Shown: piece after piece, positions 6,384 through 19,600 of the stretch
Layout of the letters: the number at the start of each line of letters is the position of its first letter
How positions within the stretch are numbered: the first letter of the stretch is position 1
Source: a virus
Strand: one strand, 5' to 3'
DNA: 22,091 bases
Virus record (IMG/VR): IMGVR_UViG_3300009080_000059
Location: 1-22,091 of that record
Notes under the pieces: generated by a model
Seen by the model: the letters and a program-made list of their open reading frames with translations, nothing else
Told to the model about the DNA's origin: nothing
Databases searched by the model: none
Made by a program: the position numbers and the translations under genes

Positions 6384-8687
6384 CTAAATTGCACAAGCTT
6401 CGCACTCTTCTTCATCGTTCTCAAATTCGCCCTGCGGCAGTTGTTCTAGTGGTGCTTCGTCTTCTAGCTCACTAGGATCTGTTTTATAATCATATGTGTT
6501 CTGATAGTATGATGTCTTCCAACCTAACTTGTATGTGTTAAGTAGATCACCTATCATTACGCTCATTGGCACTTCATTGTTATCAAAGTGTGTTGGATTG
6601 TAACTCCAGTTGCCGCTAATTGCTTGGTCAAAGAACTTCTGCATCACAGCAACAATATTTATATATCCTGTGTTGTTTGGCATTTCCCATAACAAACTGT
6701 AGTGGTTCTTTAGTGTTTGATACTGTGGAACAATCTGCTTAAGAGGCCCTTTCTTGGACTTCTTAACGGACAAGAACCCTCTAGGTGCTTCAATTCCGTT
6801 TGTTGCGTTCGACACAACGGAACTGCTTTCCGATGGCATTTGTGCGGACAACGTTGAGTGCCGTAGTCCGTGTTCCTTGATGTCAGATCGTAAACCATCC
6901 CAATCATAGTTTAATTTGTTCTCCACTACTGTATCTACATCTTTCTTATACGTATCAATAGGAAGGATGCCGTCTGCGTATTTAGTACGATTAAAGTACT
7001 CGCATGCGCCGCGCTCTTTTGCAATAGTGTTACTTGCTTTTAACAAATAGTACTGGAATGCTTCTGTTAAATCGTGTACTAATTTCCATGCTTCTTTATC
7101 ATCATATTTAACATGATTCTTTGCAAGGTAATGTGCTAGTCCAATATAACCTACACCTAAACTACGCCTTGCTTTTGTGCTAATCTCTGCCGCCTTAATT
7201 GGATATTTCTGATAGTCAATAATTTCTTCTAATGCTCTTACAGCTAACTCACATAGTTCGCCTAAGTCATCTAAGTTTCTTAGTGTACCTACATTAATAG
7301 CACTAAGAATACATAATGCAATTTCGCCTTCTGGGTCATCAATATGATTAAGTGGCTTAGTTGGTAGTGTAATTTCTTGACACAAGTTACTCATGTACAC
7401 TGTGTCTTTAAATGAGCTATGCGTATTTGCGTGGTCTACATTCATAATGTATATACGCCCTGTTTCTGCACGTTCTTTAACTAACGCACTAAACAGTTCC
7501 ATTGCTTTGATAGTTTTCTTTTTAACACTTGTTTTACGTTCATATGACTCGTATAGTTCTTTAAATTTATCTGCATCACCAAAGTATGCTTCGTACAATC
7601 CTGGAACATCGTGTGGCGAGAAAAGAGTTATATCACCGCCTGATAACAATCTTTCATACATAGTTTTGTTTAACTGTATGCTGTAATCTAATTTACGTAC
7701 ACGATTATCTTCAGTACCTTTGTTGTTCTTTAGTACAAGAATGTCTTCAATCTCTTGATGCCAGAACGGAAAATGTGTTGTAGCACTTCCGCCACGTACT
7801 CCGTTTTGTGTACAACAACGTACTGTGCTTTCGAACTTCTTTAAGAAAGGAATGATACCAGTGTGCGCCACTTCGCCACCACGTATCTTCGCGTTGACCC
7901 CACGTATGCGTCCAGCGTTAATGCCAATGCCCGCACGTTGAGCAGTATACCTGCCGATAGCCATATCACTAGCAAAAATACTGTCAAGAGTATCATCACT
8001 GTCAACAAGTACACAACTTGCAAACTGGCGTACAGGAGTTCTAACCCCTGCCATGACTGGCGTTGGGATATTGATTTTAAAAAGTGAGGTCGCATCGTAG
8101 TATCTCCTTACGTAGTGCATACGTGTTTCTGCTGGGTAGTTAGCAAACAATGTTGCCGCAATCATCATATACATAAACTGAGGAGTTTCAAATATTTGGC
8201 CATTAGAACGATCCTGACAAAGGTACTTGTCAACTACTTGACGTAGCCCTGCATAGGTAAAGTTTTCATCACGCTTATGTCTTATATAACCATCAAGTGT
8301 AGCAATTTCTTCTGTAGTGTACTTTTCAAGTATCTCAGAATCATATACGTTACGCTCAATGTTAAGTTCAATGTTTTTCTGTAGTGTAATTGCATTGTAC
8401 TCGCCGAATACATCTTTGTTTACACCATAACTTAATAGTCTAGCAGCAGCATACTGATAGTTAGGAGCATCTAAACTGATAAGATCGTTTGCACTTCGTA
8501 CAAGTATCTCTTGTATATCACTTGTTGGCATACCATCATAAAACTGTAAGTTTGCATTCATTTCAATTTGACTACTACTAACACCAGCAAGACCTTCACA
8601 AGCAAATTCTACTACCTTGTGTATTTTATCGATATTAATGTGTTCTTTGTTGCCGTCTCTTTTTGTGATTTGAATGCCATTTGACAT
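6384..8687 (-). CDS. nrdA: Ribonucleoside-diphosphate reductase, class Ia alpha subunit
   Basis: 767 residues, the usual NrdA length. Residues 1-90 form an ATP-cone (ITKRDGNKEHINIDKIHKVV), implying allosteric control of overall activity. Catalytic residues are in place: Cys225 and Cys459 as the redox pair, the thiyl radical Cys436 within NLCQEI with Asn434 and Glu438, and Tyr727-Tyr728 on the radical path. The tail ends CEACAI, so Cys762 and Cys765 can shuttle electrons from glutaredoxin. The start ATG has AGGAG 8 bases upstream. It opens the nrdA-nrdB-grx block. Nothing appears truncated or missing. Confidence 0.97.
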   Translation of the reverse strand: MSNGIQITKRDGNKEHINIDKIHKVVEFACEGLAGVSSSQIEMNANLQFYDGMPTSDIQEILVRSANDLISLDAPNYQYAAARLLSYGVNKDVFGEYNAITLQKNIELNIERNVYDSEILEKYTTEEIATLDGYIRHKRDENFTYAGLRQVVDKYLCQDRSNGQIFETPQFMYMMIAATLFANYPAETRMHYVRRYYDATSLFKINIPTPVMAGVRTPVRQFASCVLVDSDDTLDSIFASDMAIGRYTAQRAGIGINAGRIRGVNAKIRGGEVAHTGIIPFLKKFESTVRCCTQNGVRGGSATTHFPFWHQEIEDILVLKNNKGTEDNRVRKLDYSIQLNKTMYERLLSGGDITLFSPHDVPGLYEAYFGDADKFKELYESYERKTSVKKKTIKAMELFSALVKERAETGRIYIMNVDHANTHSSFKDTVYMSNLCQEITLPTKPLNHIDDPEGEIALCILSAINVGTLRNLDDLGELCELAVRALEEIIDYQKYPIKAAEISTKARRSLGVGYIGLAHYLAKNHVKYDDKEAWKLVHDLTEAFQYYLLKASNTIAKERGACEYFNRTKYADGILPIDTYKKDVDTVVENKLNYDWDGLRSDIKEHGLRHSTLSAQMPSESSSVVSNATNGIEAPRGFLSVKKSKKGPLKQIVPQYQTLKNHYSLLWEMPNNTGYINIVAVMQKFFDQAISGNWSYNPTHFDNNEVPMSVMIGDLLNTYKLGWKTSYYQNTYDYKTDPSELEDEAPLEQLPQGEFENDEEECEACAI

Positions 8688-8717
8688 GTATGTTTCTCCT
8701 GTTCCTATTAAGTTTAT

Positions 8718-8726
8718 TATTTATTG
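8718..8726 (-). promoter_or_regulatory. Late-type promoter motif CAATAAATA before nrdA
   Basis: The motif reads CAATAAATA on the minus strand, 31 bases before the nrdA ATG, and overlaps the TAA stop of the upstream gene. Because nrdA is not usually a late gene and the region is AT-rich, this may be a chance match. Confidence 0.3.
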
Positions 8727-9146
8727 CAGTCGTGGCATTGTATAGACACGTTGCGAAATTATTTCTTTTGGTAGATCCGAAACTGAAATATGACTCTCGC
8801 CATCATACCCAATTACTCTATTTTGAATCATTAACAAATAGAAAGTTTCGTTCTTCTCTCTATCTATACAGATATGTATCTCTACCAATTCTTGTTTAAA
8901 GCGTTCTGTTAACTGTAGTGAATAGCACATTCCTAATACGGTACAGAAGGCACAATACTGATTTTCTGAAATCAGTTCCCACGGTTGAGGCCACATCTTT
9001 TGGTCCCATGGATCAGTATGAATACTTACTCCAGGTACACGCTGGTAGGCATCAATTGTGTGCTGTAGCGGATCAGGGTGTGTTTCGAGTGTAGCTCGAA
9101 AATCGTGCCACGATTGAAGCCTCTTCTCAAATTGTTCTTCAAACAT
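8721..9146 (-). CDS. Unknown protein downstream of the tailspike gene
   Basis: 141 residues with no domain I can name. It is rich in aromatic residues; the centre DPWDQKMWPQPWELI followed by ENQYCAFCTVLGMCY is distinctive, with three Cys within about 10 residues. A strand-rich second half (VEIHICIDREKNETFYLLMI) follows. There is no signal peptide or membrane segment. The ATG lies four bases after the stop of the tailspike-like gene with no clear ribosome site, so translation is probably coupled. A role in folding, trimming or decorating the tailspike is an inference from position only. Confidence 0.65.
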   Translation of the reverse strand: MFEEQFEKRLQSWHDFRATLETHPDPLQHTIDAYQRVPGVSIHTDPWDQKMWPQPWELISENQYCAFCTVLGMCYSLQLTERFKQELVEIHICIDREKNETFYLLMIQNRVIGYDGESHISVSDLPKEIISQRVYTMPRLQ

Positions 9147-9150
9147 ACGT

Positions 9151-10755
9151 TTAACTTCGTGAACGTATTTTAAAAGTTAATTTTCCTGAGTCGAGTTGAT
9201 TGGTATACTTTACCTGGGCACTCCACGCTGTCTCCAATTGGTTTAGTGTTGCACTAAATTGCAAACTTTCACCTAATGAATCTAGTCCACTTATATCGTA
9301 ATCATCCATAATACTAACGCTGTTACTCTCTCTGTTTACAAACACAGTCAAAGTTCCTGATCTTGAAAACACTCTTGAGCCAACATCAGTTTTATACCAG
9401 TAGTCAATATCAAATGACTTAGTACTATCTGCGGGCAATCTAAACAATAGTTGTGGTGTGCCAATTTGGGCAAGGTCAACTTGTTCAGTATATTCGTGTT
9501 CATAAAACGCAGGTCCTTCAACCTCTGGAATATATGGTTTACTAACTATATACGCCTGATTAATACTTAAATTATACGTTCTATCAAACTCATTGTCAAC
9601 TGAAATATTGCCTGATTCTCCAAATTTTATTATACTGTGAGCAACAGTTGTTTCACTTCCGCCATTGTTACCAACACTAGGACCAAATCTGTTATTGATG
9701 CTAGAGTTACGTGTACCATTTTCAATATGAATTGCTTGTTGCTCTATGGTCTCAAAGTAACACTCTCTAATGTTGTTGTCGGTTGCGTTGAATTGAGTTG
9801 CATCTGGTGTTACACCTAATTCAATTGCTTTAGTAATGTTAAAGAACTTACATGAGTCAAATTCATTACGTGATATATTACTATTGCTTACTATGGCTTT
9901 ACCTATAGAAACAAATTCACAATCAATGAATCTATTAAACTCTGATCTTACAGCATTACTTTTACTTCTTATTTCAACAGCTGGGTTAGTTGCTGTGTTT
10001 AATATTTTATTACCTTCAAACTTTACATTTTCAAAGCGACTGTCACGACAACTATTTAATTGTAGTAATGCCGCGGTATCTTCTGATTCTGTTTGAAGTG
10101 TACAATCTTTAAATGTAATATACCTTGCACTGTTAGCATATGACATTGTGGGATCATCATTTGGAATAGTAGTAGATACTACGCCTGTGTAAGTTGTATC
10201 GCTTGATATAGTCTTAAACATATTAAAGTCGCCTGTCTTAATAAAAACAGTTTTCTCTTTACCTGCTCCAACTATAGTTGCGTAAGGTGGTATGTTTATT
10301 GTTGAACTTATTCTATATATACCTGCTTCAACATGTAGTATTACTCTGCTCTGCGGATTGTTACGTGTTGATGGTTTTAGGTATAGTTCGTATAATGCTT
10401 TTTGTAATGCTACAGTAACATCTGAACCGTCACCTGCACATCCAAATGAACGAACACTTACAATATCGTCGAGTCTAGAATTAAGTGTACGCTCTACAGA
10501 GATACCTTCGCCAGTGTCAATACTACCTCGTTTGTAAGAATATGTACCAACTAGTTCGAACAAGTCATCATGTTCGGTAAGTATCTTTGAATTGCCTACT
10601 TGAGGTGCGCCTTCTGCAACACTGCCATTGCCGATGTAAAGTTCTTGTTCGTCAACTGCCCAACCAAATTCACCGCCAGCAAGTTGCGGGATACCTGATC
10701 CTTGATTTGCTTGTCCCCTACGGACTTGTATACGACTGATTTGTACTACGGCCAC
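9151..10755 (-). CDS. Tailspike-like protein with fibre N-terminal domain and beta-helix
   Basis: 534 residues, starting at GTG 10755 with a strong AGGAG six bases upstream. Residues 5-50 (ISRIQVRRGQ... LAGGEFGWAVDEQELYIGNG) resemble the major-tropism-determinant N-terminal domain also found in the giant fibre-like protein at 1-4418. Residues 98-125 (VSVRSFGCAGDGSDVTVALQKAL) are the classic entry to a pectate-lyase-type right-handed beta-helix. Asn- and Ile-rich repeats such as ECYFETIEQQAIHIEN follow as helix rungs. The last 130 residues appear to be a separate beta-rich domain. It probably binds or digests a host surface polysaccharide; catalytic residues cannot be assigned by eye. A late-type promoter lies just upstream. 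Confidence 0.85.
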   Translation of the reverse strand: MAVVQISRIQVRRGQANQGSGIPQLAGGEFGWAVDEQELYIGNGSVAEGAPQVGNSKILTEHDDLFELVGTYSYKRGSIDTGEGISVERTLNSRLDDIVSVRSFGCAGDGSDVTVALQKALYELYLKPSTRNNPQSRVILHVEAGIYRISSTINIPPYATIVGAGKEKTVFIKTGDFNMFKTISSDTTYTGVVSTTIPNDDPTMSYANSARYITFKDCTLQTESEDTAALLQLNSCRDSRFENVKFEGNKILNTATNPAVEIRSKSNAVRSEFNRFIDCEFVSIGKAIVSNSNISRNEFDSCKFFNITKAIELGVTPDATQFNATDNNIRECYFETIEQQAIHIENGTRNSSINNRFGPSVGNNGGSETTVAHSIIKFGESGNISVDNEFDRTYNLSINQAYIVSKPYIPEVEGPAFYEHEYTEQVDLAQIGTPQLLFRLPADSTKSFDIDYWYKTDVGSRVFSRSGTLTVFVNRESNSVSIMDDYDISGLDSLGESLQFSATLNQLETAWSAQVKYTNQLDSGKLTFKIRSRS

Positions 10756-10783
10756 TGCGCTCTCCTAAGTTGCTTTCTATAAT

Positions 10784-10792
10784 GTATTTATG
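10784..10792 (-). promoter_or_regulatory. Late-type promoter motif CATAAATAC
   Basis: Reads CATAAATAC on the minus strand, 29 bases before the GTG start of the tailspike-like gene and overlapping the TAA stop of the nuclease gene. It fits NATAAATA, and a late structural gene is a sensible target. Confidence 0.5.
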
Positions 10793-11468
10793 CTTGTTTC
10801 TCATAATACATTTCGCAACGCTTCCACCACTCCTGCGCCCACTCATCAAACTCATCTGGCCATATATCAAACTGTTGATAATCTAAATCACGCGAACACA
10901 TAAAGATATGTCCTTCACGTATGTTTGTGCCATGTACTTCGTTGTGTGCTAATGCGTATGCAGTAAGTTGTAGGTAGTAGTCATACACCCACTCAGGTTT
11001 CTTAGGTTTGTTAGTTTGTTTAAAGTCCATTATGCAAGGCTGACCTTTGTATTGTCCTACTAAGTCAGTTGTTCCTGCATAGATGCCCGGAACATATAAA
11101 GGAACTTCACTTCCCCATATCTCATCTACATCACCCATTGCTTCGTCACGTATAACACACGCCATTGAGTGTGCTTTTTGTGCATATGGATTGCTACCAC
11201 AAGTTGGCCATTCGCCAAACTCTATATAATCTTCAAGGTATTTGTGCATACGTGTACCCACGCCTGCCGCTTCAGTTACAATCTCTTGTGCTTTCTTTTC
11301 GCCTACACGTTTGCGCCATGCAATTAAGTGTGACTTATCTTTTGTAGCGTCAAGTATAGTTGTTACACTTGCTACAGGTACACCGCCTGGTGCAGCATAC
11401 TTACGTTTACCGTTTACTTCAACTCGCTTGAGTCTTTCGTATTTGTACTTCTCTATAATTAAGCTCAA
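10788..11468 (-). CDS. PD-(D/E)XK nuclease, RecB/Cas4-like
   Basis: 226 residues with the ordered motifs of a RecB-family nuclease: GTRMH (His75), SEVPL (Glu121), AGTTD (Asp135), IMDFK (Asp148, Lys150) and QLTAY (Gln167, Tyr171). These are the metal-binding and catalytic residues of the PD-(D/E)XK fold. It likely degrades or trims DNA, in host DNA breakdown, recombination or end processing; polarity and substrate cannot be told. Cas4-type FeS cysteines are not obvious. The start is TTG at 11468, overlapping the TGA stop of the NFU gene, so translation is coupled. The pairing with an Fe-S protein gene is notable. Confidence 0.85.
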   Translation of the reverse strand: MSLIIEKYKYERLKRVEVNGKRKYAAPGGVPVASVTTILDATKDKSHLIAWRKRVGEKKAQEIVTEAAGVGTRMHKYLEDYIEFGEWPTCGSNPYAQKAHSMACVIRDEAMGDVDEIWGSEVPLYVPGIYAGTTDLVGQYKGQPCIMDFKQTNKPKKPEWVYDYYLQLTAYALAHNEVHGTNIREGHIFMCSRDLDYQQFDIWPDEFDEWAQEWWKRCEMYYEKQA

Positions 11469-11818
11469 TCTTTAGGTTCCTTTGGTAATTCTACGTCATA
11501 GTCTTCTAGATGAATACGTTGCATGCCAAATGGGTCTGACATATATGGCTCGACTCCCGAGTTCGGATCGTCTACTCCAACAACAGCCGTTACTTCAGGG
11601 ATCATACCAGTAAGAGTTCTTTCAATACCCTCTTTTAAAGTCATTGAAGACATAGCACAACCAGAACAAGCACCGCTCATTTCAAGTGTTACAACTCCGT
11701 CATTGTAATCAAGGTAATTTACTACGCCACCGTGTCCTGCTACTGCTGGCTGAACATATATTTCTAATACTTGTTTAATATTTTCAACAGTTGAATCATA
11801 TGTATTTTTATCAGTCAT
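11465..11818 (-). CDS. NFU-domain (NifU C-terminal-like) Fe-S cluster protein
   Basis: 117 residues from the ATG at 11818, which has AGGAG upstream; the frame stays open to 11869 but that extension has no ribosome site. Residues 10-85 match the NFU domain: a helix with VLEIYVQPAVAGHGGVV, a strand VVTLEMSGAC, and the cluster-binding CSGC (Cys51, Cys54) followed by SSMTLKEGIE. NFU proteins carry and deliver Fe-S clusters to target enzymes in the cytoplasm. The acidic C-terminal tail (residues 90-117) is extra to the domain. It is transcribed with the PD-(D/E)XK nuclease from its own sigma70-like promoter. Confidence 0.9.
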   Translation of the reverse strand: MTDKNTYDSTVENIKQVLEIYVQPAVAGHGGVVNYLDYNDGVVTLEMSGACSGCAMSSMTLKEGIERTLTGMIPEVTAVVGVDDPNSGVEPYMSDPFGMQRIHLEDYDVELPKEPKD

Positions 11819-11840
11819 AAAAAAGCTCCTATTAATGTAT

Positions 11841-11869
11841 ATAATAACACCAAATAAGAGCTCTGTCAA
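11841..11869 (-). promoter_or_regulatory. Sigma70-like promoter for NFU-nuclease operon
   Basis: On the minus strand, TTGACA (11864-11869) and TATTAT (11841-11846) are separated by exactly 17 bases: a perfect -35 and a 5-of-6 -10. The start codon lies 22 bases after the -10. It suggests early transcription by unmodified host RNA polymerase. Confidence 0.75.
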
Positions 11870-11877
11870 CCGTTAAT

Positions 11878-12090
11878 TTAAAGTCCAGCACCCACGTCAG
11901 TTGCTCGCTTTGCCATGTCACCAACAGTGTCAGCATCACTTGGCTCAGTGCTACCTACTTGATCCATAGAACTATCGTTAATAGTTACACCTTGTGGATC
12001 AAACTTAACTAACTTTTGGAGTTGTGGATTGCTATCGTAAGTTGCTTTGAATGAATTGTAATCAAACTGTGGTACGCCAGCTTTTTTCAT
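11878..12090 (-). CDS. C-terminal part of the frameshifted acidic protein
   Basis: As a stand-alone frame this gives 70 residues from ATG 12090 (MKKAGVPQFDYNSFKATYD), but no ribosome site precedes that ATG. The same frame is open for 34 more codons upstream to 12192, encoding protein-like sequence (KIAEALDESGTLVQIIKTI), and joins the nine-A run at 12193-12201 where the upstream gene is in the neighbouring frame. A -1 shift there fuses the two into one protein of about 351 residues. I therefore read it as the C-terminal end of the gene at 12183-12932. Function unknown. Confidence 0.6.
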   Translation of the reverse strand: MKKAGVPQFDYNSFKATYDSNPQLQKLVKFDPQGVTINDSSMDQVGSTEPSDADTVGDMAKRATDVGAGL

Positions 12091-12182
12091 ATAGCCATTA
12101 AGTTTGTCCCACGTAATAGTGGTTCCAGGCTTAATTGTTTTGATTATTTGTACTAGTGTACCAGACTCGTCTAATGCTTCGG

Positions 12183-12932
12183 CTATTTTAGCTTTTTTTT
12201 TGAACGCTCTACTGACTCACGCTTTTCTCTGCCAGCTTCTTCTTCGCCGCCAGCAGCCGCATCGTCTGCACCAAAGTCATCGCCCATGTCATCTAAAGGC
12301 TCATCAATACCTGGCTCTAACTCATCAGTAGGTTCCATGTCGCCTAAGTCGCCCATGTCATCGTCGCCCATTGGCTGTTGCATGTCGCCTTCACCAGTTA
12401 GCATACCAACACCACTTGTTAGTGCTGCTCTTGTGCCTTCCATTTCAGCATATAGTTGCTCTAATGCAGGCTTAATAGTATTAGTAAATGACTCAGCTTG
12501 CTCACTACCCATCTCGTCTCTAATAGCATCTGCTAGTTCAAGCATTGATTCAGTTTGCATTTCTGCTGTGTCTTCCATCCAACCAGTAACTCTGTCAACC
12601 ATGTCTTTGGCTGCCATTACTAATTCAGCTTTGTCTTCTTCGCCTTCAGTAATAGTTGCTTCAAGCATTGGTTCGTCAATGTCAGCTCTTTCGCCAATCT
12701 CAGCATTAAGTACATCTAGGAAAAGTTTTGACTTTTGATACGCTGGATTTTGAGTTGAGTTAAAACTTTCCTTTGTTTCAACTTGACTAAGTGTTGTTCT
12801 TAATTTGTTTTGGGCATCTTGTAACTGTCCAAGTGTAAATTCTTCTAAGTTTAGACGCTGGCCAAACTTCTTAGCTAGGCTTTCGTTCAAGCTCTTTGCT
12901 GTAATTGGTTTTGAAATTTCTCTTATATTCAT
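12183..12932 (-). CDS. Acidic coiled-coil-like protein with capsid-targeting-like N-terminus (0-frame product)
   Basis: 249 residues in the 0 frame. The N-terminus MNIREISKPITAKSLNESLAKK carries the signature shared by neighbouring genes and an L-N-E|S site that could be cut by a prohead protease. Residues 30-185 are mostly predicted helix; 185-235 is a strongly acidic Asp/Glu/Gly/Met tract, recalling T4 prohead core proteins in composition only. The frame ends in a Lys tail just after A AAA AAG, and the -1 frame continues for 104 codons (see 11878-12090). The full product is probably about 351 residues. A late-type promoter lies upstream. Confidence 0.75.
   Translation of the reverse strand: MNIREISKPITAKSLNESLAKKFGQRLNLEEFTLGQLQDAQNKLRTTLSQVETKESFNSTQNPAYQKSKLFLDVLNAEIGERADIDEPMLEATITEGEEDKAELVMAAKDMVDRVTGWMEDTAEMQTESMLELADAIRDEMGSEQAESFTNTIKPALEQLYAEMEGTRAALTSGVGMLTGEGDMQQPMGDDDMGDLGDMEPTDELEPGIDEPLDDMGDDFGADDAAAGGEEEAGREKRESVERSKKKLK
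12192..12203 (-). other. Slippery A9 run, candidate -1 frameshift site
   Basis: The minus strand reads TCA AAA AAA AAG in the 0 frame, containing A AAA AAG, the heptamer used in E. coli dnaX frameshifting. Slipping back one base continues as AAA GCT AAA ATA and stays open to 11878. A small GCTA-AAA-TAGC hairpin follows directly. A missing A in the assembly would look identical. Confidence 0.6.
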
Positions 12933-12967
12933 TGTTCAACTTTCCTAAATGTTGTTCTTTGTACATT

Positions 12968-12975
12968 TATTTATC
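12968..12975 (-). promoter_or_regulatory. Late-type promoter motif GATAAATA
   Basis: GATAAATA on the minus strand, 35 bases before the ATG at 12932 and in the gap after the gene at 12978-13406. It differs from the T4 late motif TATAAATA at one base. Confidence 0.5.
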
Positions 12976-12977
12976 AT

Positions 12978-13406
12978 TTAACACAGGATTAGTTCATCCA
13001 GTTGATTCTTGGCATCTTGTGCTAATGAGTAACTTATATCGAATCTAGTTTCTAATACTTCGTATTTAGATCCGTCCTTTGTTCGTTTCATTCCGTGATT
13101 GTAAAAAACACAATCTTGATAATGCTTACTTAATATATCATCTAACTTTTCTACAGTTCTAACTAAACTTCCTGTTTGATCACTTGCGTGTACCTTAGCA
13201 AAAGCAATAGCACTAGTCTTAGCAAAGAACTTACCTGCTTGTATATTTTCTGCTACATCATATACTAACCAAGCGCCAGCTTTCTTACTGTATCTAACTA
13301 CATAGTTCTTGATACGTATGGAATTGCCTTTTACTACCGGTAGAGGGTATTCTTTTAACTTGTTGTTAATTAAATTTTCTAATTGACTAGCTAAGTCCGA
13401 AATCAT
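12978..13406 (-). CDS. Unknown protein, small phage hypothetical
   Basis: 142 residues, no recognisable domain. A helical start (DLASQLENLINNKLKEYP) is followed by a strand-rich core (SIRIKNYVVRYSKKAGAWLVYDV) and a helical end (SYSLAQDAKNQLDELILC). It is basic in the middle, so nucleic-acid contact is conceivable but unproven. It lacks the N-terminal signature of its neighbours. Its start overlaps the end of the gene at 13387-13599 by 20 bases, so it is part of the same operon running from 14736 down to 11878. Confidence 0.7.
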   Translation of the reverse strand: MISDLASQLENLINNKLKEYPLPVVKGNSIRIKNYVVRYSKKAGAWLVYDVAENIQAGKFFAKTSAIAFAKVHASDQTGSLVRTVEKLDDILSKHYQDCVFYNHGMKRTKDGSKYEVLETRFDISYSLAQDAKNQLDELILC

Positions 13407-13599
13407 TTTGCACCACCATTACTATGTTGTCCCGAAGTACTTTACTTACAAGACTTTTCCTTATCAAGTTCTCAATTATGACTTGTTCTCTAGGAGAAAA
13501 GCCTTGTAGGGGTTGCACAGGTTTTACTTTATTCAATACCTCTGCTTCCTCGTTTGATAGAGCTATACTAAAGCTCTGAATTAACTCGTTCAGTTTCAT
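13387..13599 (-). CDS. Small helical unknown protein
   Basis: 70 residues: MKLNELIQSF followed by helical sequence containing SPREQVIIENLIRKSLVSKV. It starts with the M-x-hydrophobic-x-E-hydrophobic signature, though its best cleavage-like site (SNE|E) is weak. The ATG overlaps the TGA of the upstream gene (ATGA) and its 3' end overlaps the next gene by 20 bases. No function can be given. A DNA- or protein-binding helical bundle is possible. Confidence 0.65.
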   Translation of the reverse strand: MKLNELIQSFSIALSNEEAEVLNKVKPVQPLQGFSPREQVIIENLIRKSLVSKVLRDNIVMVVQNDFGLS

Positions 13600-13854: not shown

Positions 13855-14178
13855 TTATATCCTTTTTGCCTTAGACTTTTTACGGTTAGTCCTCATGCTT
13901 ATGTTTACCTTAGGTAACCTACGTGAAGCAGGATTTGCTCTTTTAGTTCTTGCTGTTTTAACAGCCTGGCGCTTGGCGCCTGCTCTTTTTACTTTTTTAA
14001 GTGTAGTTGCCTTCTTAATATTCTTTGGTGCTGTACATGTTGACATCTTAGCAACAATACGTCCTTTACGTGGACCACTACTACATCTGTATTTACGAGT
14101 ACTCTGGTTGCCTTTACGTCCATAAATGGATGTTGCACCTTCGTCTATACTTATTGATGTTAACTCTCGTAAGTACAT
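13855..14178 (-). CDS. Basic protein, paralogue A (possible packaged DNA-binding protein)
   Basis: 107 residues, extremely basic, ending KKSKAKRI. The start MYLRELTSISIDE|GATS carries the shared signature and an I-D-E|G cleavage-like site. The rest aligns with its neighbour: RKYRC-x15-C (Cys32, Cys48) around a GRIV core, an IKK segment and a KRANPASRR motif. The two Cys could pair or bind metal, but no zinc-ribbon set is complete. Basic internal proteins of T4 heads are injected with the DNA; a similar role is inferred. The ATG overlaps the stop of the upstream paralogue (TAATG). Confidence 0.75.
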   Translation of the reverse strand: MYLRELTSISIDEGATSIYGRKGNQSTRKYRCSSGPRKGRIVAKMSTCTAPKNIKKATTLKKVKRAGAKRQAVKTARTKRANPASRRLPKVNISMRTNRKKSKAKRI

Positions 14179-14483
14179 TAGATTCTCTTTGCCTTACCTG
14201 CCTTATTAAGTTGAGCAACTCTACGGCTTGCTGAATTAGTGCGTTTAGTCTTACGTGCTTTACGTGACATCTTGGCACCTAGTCTTGCTTTTGTAACCTT
14301 AAGTTTCAAACGTTTCTTTATGTCAGGTCTTGCAAAGCATTGTGCAATGTTAGACACAATACGTCCATGCCGTGTGCCGCCAGCACATCTAAACTTACGA
14401 ACAACCTTGTTGCCACGTTTAGCCCATGCCATCTTAGCTTCGTCTAGTTCTTCTAGCGGTAAGGTAATCTCTCTTAATAACAT
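14178..14483 (-). CDS. Basic protein, paralogue B (possible packaged DNA-binding protein)
   Basis: 101 residues, very rich in Lys and Arg and ending AGKAKRI, like its neighbour. The start MLLREITLPLEELDE|AKMA contains the shared signature and L-D-E|A, the closest match here to the T4 prohead protease site. It shares RK(Y/F)RC-x15-C (Cys33, Cys49), GRIV, IKK and KRTNSASRR with paralogue A, so the pair arose by duplication. No Shine-Dalgarno precedes the ATG, which is 16 bases after the upstream stop; re-initiation is likely. Confidence 0.75.
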   Translation of the reverse strand: MLLREITLPLEELDEAKMAWAKRGNKVVRKFRCAGGTRHGRIVSNIAQCFARPDIKKRLKLKVTKARLGAKMSRKARKTKRTNSASRRVAQLNKAGKAKRI

Positions 14484-18810: not shown

Positions 18811-18832
18811 AATGTACATAATGGAGGGCACA

Positions 18833-19600
18833 ATGAAAGGTATACAAAAATTAAGTTTTTTAGAAAGATCATTATTATTCGCTAAACTATCACAAGTAGC
18901 ATATAATAACATAGACGATGCTAAAAAGCAAGCAAAAGAATTAGGTTTCACAACTATTGAGTTTTATGACAAAGACGGAGCACAAGCATATCGATTTATG
19001 AACAAGACAGATCTTGTTATTGCTTGTAGAGGAACACAACCTACAGAATTTAATGACATCAAAGCAGATTTAAAAGCCCTACCAGTTCTTGCAGAAACTA
19101 TGAGTCGAGTACACAGAGGTTTCAAAGCAGAAGTTGATGAACTTTGGCCAATGGTCGAAGAAGATGTATTACGTAAAACAAACTTAAACAAGACACTTTG
19201 GTTTTGTGGACATAGTTTAGGAGCGGCAATGGCAACTATAATGTCTAGTCGTTGCAAACATAATATTGAACTAAATGACCCAGTACAATTATACACTTAT
19301 GGTTCTCCTCGTGTAGGTTGGAAAGGTTATTGTGATAATATATGTGTCGAGCATAATAGATGGAAGAACAATAATGATATTGTTACTAGTGTTCCTCCAA
19401 CGTTTATGGGATATAAGCACCACGGTACTAAACACTACATCAACGCCTATGGTAATGTCCGTAATTTAACTTCATGGCAACGAATCAAAGATAAGTTGCG
19501 TGGACTATGGATGGGTATTAAGGCTGGTAAGGTAGATTCATTTAGCGATCACAGTATTGATGAATACATCAAACACATTGAAACAGCGTTAGGAAAATAA
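18833..19600 (+). CDS. Class 3 lipase, alpha/beta hydrolase
   Basis: 255 residues from the ATG at 18833, chosen because GGAGGG lies just before it; an upstream in-frame ATG lacks a site. The nucleophile elbow [11 protein letters not shown] has Ser128, Asp172 lies in [10 protein letters not shown], and His230 lies in SDHSIDEYI, giving a full Ser-Asp-His triad in lipase_3 order. YTYGSPRVG before the Asp is also typical. There is no signal peptide, so it acts in the cytoplasm or is released at lysis. It would hydrolyse acyl esters, possibly host membrane lipids. It is the only complete plus-strand gene here and overlaps prs tail to tail by 12 bases. Confidence 0.9.

Follow-up and report, generated by a model that had tools for sequence, protein, structure and literature searches.

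A probable optional cargo site for nfu and other iron-linked genes beside an exonuclease gene in T4-like marine phages

The locus and its expression signals

The window, meaning the whole stretch of DNA analysed, is a 22,091-base virus record of T4-like marine type (IMGVR_UViG_3300009080_000059). No close cultured relative of it was found, the best DNA match being nrdA at 73% and the best nuclease match 47%, and cyanophages show only distant DNA similarity. Genes for nrdA, nrdB, glutaredoxin and PRPP synthetase are present (named from ORF translations and similarity matches), together with a pectate-lyase-fold protein and structural-type ORFs (Pfam, PHROG). The features considered here are the following:

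11878..12090, minus strand: orf70, left border of the slot described below, with its frame open further upstream (locus comparison)
11841..11869, minus strand: sigma70-like promoter, TTGACA-17-TATTAT with extended -10 (11/12 match and conservation)
11826..11830, minus strand: AGGAG, ribosome-binding site of nfu (sequence)
11465..11818, minus strand: nfu, encoding a 117-aa NFU-domain protein (PF01106; start kept in relatives)
11657..11668, minus strand: CSGC motif (Cys51, Cys54), presumed cluster ligands (GACSGC invariant in 19/19)
11468..11554, minus strand: C-terminal tail of NFU, a DDPxSxVxPyM/Y stretch and then a variable end (alignment of slot NFUs)
11478..11483, minus strand: AAAGGA, likely ribosome-binding site of the nuclease gene inside the end of nfu (sequence; function inferred)
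10788..11468, minus strand: nuclease of PD-(D/E)XK RecB/MGME1 type, PHROG_298 exonuclease, TTG start (Pfam, PHROG, motifs, fold)
9151..10755, minus strand: pectate-lyase-fold protein, probably tail-associated (PF12708, 50.4 bits; synteny)

The preliminary description of this DNA had recognised an NFU-domain protein with a CSGC motif, which is confirmed by PF01106 (84.5 bits against a cut-off of 27, residues 14-80 of 117) and by Cys51 and Cys54 within a GACSGC stretch common to all 19 aligned slot NFUs. The start proposed there, TTG 11869, has to be moved. This TTG, also the start in the ORF list, opens the -35 box, and relatives share ATG 11818, downstream of AGGAG, so the protein has 117 rather than 134 residues. 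After the GACSGC domain the 19 slot NFUs carry a DDPxSxVDPY-like tail, and the structure model is of low confidence there (residues 90-111). Solved relatives include human NFU1 and a plant NFU, and the phage protein, as a dimer, would use CSGC to bind a [4Fe-4S] cluster. Pairwise dN/dS values of 0.06-0.27 (15 pairs of 6 sequences) indicate that nfu is under purifying selection.

The best NCBIfam match is NfuA, with which the protein shares the NFU domain and its CxxC, yet it aligns to positions 105-185 of 190 of TIGR03341 only and scores 62.6 bits, far below the equivalog cut-off of 269.35. It thus corresponds to the C-terminal half of NfuA, lacks the A-type N-terminal domain and has a C-terminal tail of its own. 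The C-terminal half of NfuA binds a [4Fe-4S] cluster, NfuA matters under oxidative stress, and stand-alone NFU proteins work in several bacteria (PMC8593673). In E. coli NfuA, however, the A-type half is needed in vivo (PMC8593673), which by analogy may count against a carrier role for the phage protein.

The near-consensus sigma70 promoter reported upstream of the gene pair is borne out, matching 11 of 12 consensus positions with a TG before the -10 box. Such a match alone proves little, because a scan of 5 kb gives about as many promoter-like sites (17) as shuffled sequence (mean 15.3). Its position is nonetheless kept in relatives: at the edge of the slot, the segment between orf70 and the nuclease gene, a match of at least 10/12 is found in 25/25 slots that begin with nfu, 39/40 empty slots and 30/38 slots that begin with another gene. 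The same threshold is reached in 3% of 309 random stretches, 3% of 515 shuffled stretches and 4/63 (6%) stretches immediately ahead of the nuclease gene where the slot is filled. The eight misses (L040, L059, L076, L092, L312, L318, L325 and L336) all carry cargo to the left of the promoter, which there follows the cargo and precedes nfu or the nuclease gene; likewise, all five distinct slots with iscU have it between iscU and nfu. Since it is kept in full and empty slots, and after left-hand cargo, the promoter belongs to the slot. A search for the T4 late promoter TATAAATA gave no signal (2 matches against 2.5 expected), and no minus-strand terminator was found in 8500-13500. As for nfu being a moron, no terminator of its own was found, the gene overlaps the next, and the promoter before it goes with the slot, being present also where there is no cargo. 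A perfect 12/12 sigma70 consensus stands on the minus strand at 9571-9599, inside the pectate-lyase ORF, and may be a chance match or an internal promoter.

The two genes overlap in TTGA (nuclease TTG 11468-11466, nfu TGA 11467-11465, minus strand). Co-translation had been proposed on this ground; the overlap is confirmed by the coordinates, while translational coupling itself is what we infer from it. The stretch AAAGGAACCTA precedes the nuclease gene in an empty relative (L025) and stands within the end of nfu in the window, as though nfu had been inserted downstream of the promoter but ahead of a ribosome site belonging to the nuclease gene. The start codon of the nuclease gene was considered as a marker of coupling and dropped, being mixed in overlapping types (ATG in 16, TTG in 5 and one misread; n=22) and in empty ones (ATG in 37, TTG in 3; n=40, with 9 further types left out).

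Upstream of the slot, orf249 matches the virion protein family PHROG_14154, and its junction with orf70 (12183-12215, minus strand) has a -1 frame overlap across an A9G run just before the first stop, with no ATG in the second frame for 42 codons. This overlap is found in 93/104 distinct relatives, always in -1 (90 with an A run, 82 with exactly A9G); it is absent from 6, and 5 were not evaluable. The junction is a strong candidate for an orf249-orf70 fusion made by programmed -1 frameshifting at A9G.

The nuclease as a neighbour of nfu

The nuclease matches PDDEXK_1 (26.1 bits; cut-off 22) and the PHROG_298 exonucleases (178 bits). Its model (pLDDT 92) is closest in structure to human MGME1 (TM 0.72, E 1.6e-12), also the nearest solved relative by sequence profile (E 1e-12). 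H75, D135, D148-x-K150 and Q167xxxY171 are conserved across 104 distinct proteins and match H180, D238, D251 and the QhXXY motif of MGME1, which is described as a two-cation nuclease in its structure paper (PMC6237815). These motifs and the fold place the protein in the RecB/MGME1-type PD-(D/E)XK group. It differs from MGME1 in being a phage protein, with a substrate that would have to be predicted from these relatives. The earlier assignment to a RecB/Cas4 type therefore stands as regards RecB, whereas the cysteine columns and MGME1-type fold speak against a Cas4-like Fe-S character.

One possible role of NFU would be as a dedicated maturation factor of the adjoining nuclease, which would carry an Fe-S cluster as Cas4 or AddB does. 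Of the 104 types, 40 carry nfu, in most of them adjacent to or overlapping the nuclease gene, and the nuclease has weak fold matches to Cas4 and AddAB. A four-cysteine site was looked for in the structure model and the alignment, and none exists: of six cysteine-bearing columns only Cys191 is near-invariant (103/104 distinct relatives), and the others vary (145 in 75 types, 218 in 45, 104 in 30). The absence of clear cluster cysteines, already remarked on in the preliminary description, is thereby upheld. Furthermore, 97%-identical nucleases occur without an adjoining NFU, and their records, as assembled, hold none elsewhere. With a two-cation nuclease as its best solved relative by both sequence and fold, the maturation role is largely refuted and we regard it as very improbable.

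The pairing is also confined in its distribution. Among 50,697 phage records the PHROG_298 nuclease occurs in 947 and NFU in 23, several of the latter evidently bacterial contigs. Eight cyanophage-type records have NFU; four of them also hold the nuclease, never next to NFU, which makes the pairing a feature of the present lineage and slot. Conservation of the pair across phages thus fails in cyanophage-type records, and in the present lineage the pair recurs in the same slot (40/104 types) as an optional arrangement. The cluster delivery suggested earlier is accordingly not supported where the nuclease is the recipient, given the missing cluster site, the optional pairing and the separate cyanophage-type genes; delivery to another phage or host enzyme is the best reading.

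Stand-alone NFU domains (NifU-like) are known from the T4-like cyanophages P-SSM2 and P-TIM68, but these are about 40% identical or less to the window protein and are not beside a PHROG_298 nuclease. In P-TIM68 (L019, 3962-4473) the NFU gene shares a single base with a short gene annotated as endonuclease VII, which is unrelated to the window nuclease and represents another NFU-nuclease overlap.

Contents and turnover of the slot

Loci were collected by the window NFU (9), the window nuclease (80), an NFU alignment (80) and a distant nuclease (80); being gathered by similarity to few query proteins, they are related and not independent samples. A first screen placed NFU beside the nuclease in 32/80 nuclease-collected loci and the nuclease near NFU in 16/80 NFU-collected loci; where NFU was missing, the upstream gene abutted the nuclease gene or an oxygenase-like gene lay in between. 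From 215 loci of uncultured T4-like marine phages, 168 with both slot borders were counted. NFU loci L147-L179, profile-screened and without a nuclease nearby, were excluded, as were the viral-contig IscU loci L180-L259, many of which lie on contigs of up to 337 kb that are possibly bacterial.

All 168 loci share a fixed order of the virion-type orf70, the slot and the nuclease gene; the pectate-lyase-fold gene is the next conserved gene in relatives. These loci represent 104 distinct nuclease types (window included), of which 40 have nfu, 40 are empty and 24 hold other genes without nfu. An iron-linked family (NFU, IscU, 2OG-Fe(II)-oxygenase-like, HemC, HemE or HemF) is present in 61/64 filled slots; the exceptions, L312, L325 and L336, each hold one gene of unknown family. 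The 229 slot ORFs fall into 12 clusters, with nfu the commonest single cassette: NFU 76 ORFs, three 2OG-oxygenase-like clusters of 83, 40 and 2, IscU 6, HemC 6, HemE 3, HemF 3, and four clusters of 3, 3, 3 and 1 without an iron link.

Family identities were checked on cluster representatives (Pfam, NCBIfam, PHROG). IscU of L040 exceeds the TIGR01999 cut-off (214.8 against 192.4 bits) and that of L066 falls below it (157.8); HemC and HemF of L143 are above their NCBIfam cut-offs; the oxygenases match PHROG_81, several of them below Pfam cut-offs. Identity between phage IscU and gammaproteobacterial IscU reaches no more than 85-86%, a slight hint that the host belongs to the Gammaproteobacteria. 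The most heavily loaded slot (L143/L261) has a pair of oxygenase genes, nfu, hemE, hemF, hemC and a second pair of oxygenase genes; its hemE-hemF-hemC run (L143, 4251-6830) includes HemE and HemF proteins without a PHROG family at E 0.01. Cargo also sorts by side, with nfu, oxygenases and hemF/hemC to the right of the promoter, before the nuclease gene, and iscU, a lone hemE and two unknown genes to its left. The two protein families represented left of the promoter at L336 3078-3716 and L076 925-1524 have no Pfam or PHROG match.

The distribution of nfu requires 16 changes on the nuclease tree, a quick tree with many weak branches (46/101 open), and at least five of these changes are forced by well-supported branches. 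The window groups with seven empty types and one other nfu type. Exactly one NFU was found in each of 19 nfu-slot records and none in 26 others of up to 117 kb. Relocation of NFU in nfu-free relatives was considered and rejected, none being found elsewhere in 22 (of 30) or 26 (of 45) partial records. As is typical of auxiliary metabolic genes, nfu is thus host-type, in a phage context and present in only 40/104 distinct types.

Repeated gain and loss would also fit neutral traffic through a recombination-tolerant gap, with the iron theme arising from chance and the general abundance of 2OG oxygenases. T4-like marine phages as a group often carry such oxygenases, the family PHROG_81 is itself a phage one, and genes of unknown family also enter the slot. 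The adjoining variable site, the gap between the nuclease and pectate-lyase-fold genes, served as a control. It is filled in 13/100 distinct loci (16 ORFs, 8 clusters), and its clusters match none of the slot families; Pfam searches of 4/8 gave a reprolysin-like peptidase, MlaC and two without a match. Iron-linked clusters make up 8/12 in the slot against 0/8 in the control gap (Fisher, p = 0.004; 0.011 with oxygenases merged), in a test that treats families as independent, was chosen after the pattern had been seen and uses a single control site picked for convenience. This absence of slot families from the control, the purifying selection on nfu, and the fact that the slot is shared by NFU, IscU, HemC, HemE and HemF, which do not form a single family, all argue against neutral traffic, which we consider unlikely.

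Not all iron genes are held in the slot, as IscU is mostly found outside it (once in the slot and elsewhere in 7/8 of the 8/45 records with IscU) and, among the 3/45 records with HemF, one hemF lies downstream of nrdA. Possible Fe-S clients in these records, radical SAM proteins (5/45), as well as A-type carriers (3/45), show no clear link to nfu.

Possible roles of the cargo

The site, its order, its promoter, its contents and the repeated gain or loss of nfu are apparent from sequence comparison. Building on these, the interpretation we favour, and consider reasonably probable, is that nfu is cargo which may or may not occupy a fixed insertion site, and that NFU acts as a carrier serving Fe-S enzymes of the host or phage, not the nuclease. 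Behind a virion-type ORF, the resident parts would be the sigma70-like promoter and the MGME1/RecB-type exonuclease gene. Cargo between promoter and nuclease gene would be transcribed early by the host RNA polymerase, on a transcript that leads into the nuclease gene, with early timing suggested by the promoter match; cargo immediately to the left of the promoter would share a transcript with the upstream gene. NFU may then supply Fe-S enzymes of the host (or others of the phage) with clusters and so keep the cell functioning during phage production, with the nuclease as a neighbour on the same transcript and not a client.

A more specific role would be service to phage metal enzymes, chiefly upkeep of the downstream ribonucleotide reductase (nrdA, nrdB, glutaredoxin). 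In most loci reaching that far nrdA lies downstream in the same direction, the window has nrdA-nrdB-glutaredoxin, and in two single-cell marine virus records (L013, L014) the NFU gene lies at about 5001, just after nrdA-nrdB. Against this, nrdA is equally present beside empty slots, and no [2Fe-2S] ferredoxin (Fer2) was found in the 45 partial records, so this role appears improbable.

The optional-cargo interpretation can be taken further, as the slot resembles a loading bay in which genes of iron chemistry can be exchanged. In this tentative extension, which we hold as possible but with some doubt, the promoter marks a loading site at which right-hand cargo is expressed early with the nuclease, presumably an enzyme of replication or repair, and left-hand cargo with virion genes, and the phage adjusts host iron-cofactor supply by swapping cassettes. 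If so, Fe-S, heme and Fe(II)-oxygenase capacity of the host could be tuned by a single cassette. Iron is limiting for life in much of the ocean. Because close relatives differ in cargo but share promoter and nuclease, these loci also provide natural with/without pairs for studying gene function. More generally, overlapping phage genes are not necessarily functional partners; in this case the neighbour is the marker of an insertion site.

Fe-S and heme genes in marine phages are known singly, and reports of phage iron-cofactor genes have until now been isolated ones. For example, T4-like marine viruses carry the Fe-S assembly genes IscU and an A-type carrier, along with radical SAM, Cas4 and PaaD (PMC5332604). 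They resemble the present phages in type and in having Fe-S assembly genes of gammaproteobacterial type; the section of that paper on these viruses names neither NFU nor a fixed site with promoter and nuclease. Pelagimyophages, also marine and T4-like, carry the heme genes coproporphyrinogen oxidase and porphobilinogen deaminase, which the relevant part of the source does not link to NFU or to such a slot (PMC7029224). Other reports include nifU in viromes (PMC7785012, PMC8940887, PMC2186209), a phage 5-ALA synthase (PMC11480375) and iscU with erpA in HMO-2011-type phages (PMC9038755). In the open-access literature searched, we did not find an iron-themed cargo site described before, nor an account of NFU paired with a PHROG_298 nuclease.

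Two further observations concern the rest of the window. At 13855-14483 (minus strand) lie two basic ORFs in tandem, paralogues of 107 and 101 aa that are ~44% identical and are present in relatives too. At 18812-19600 (plus strand) a Lipase_3-type gene (67.6 bits) stands on the strand opposite to its neighbours.
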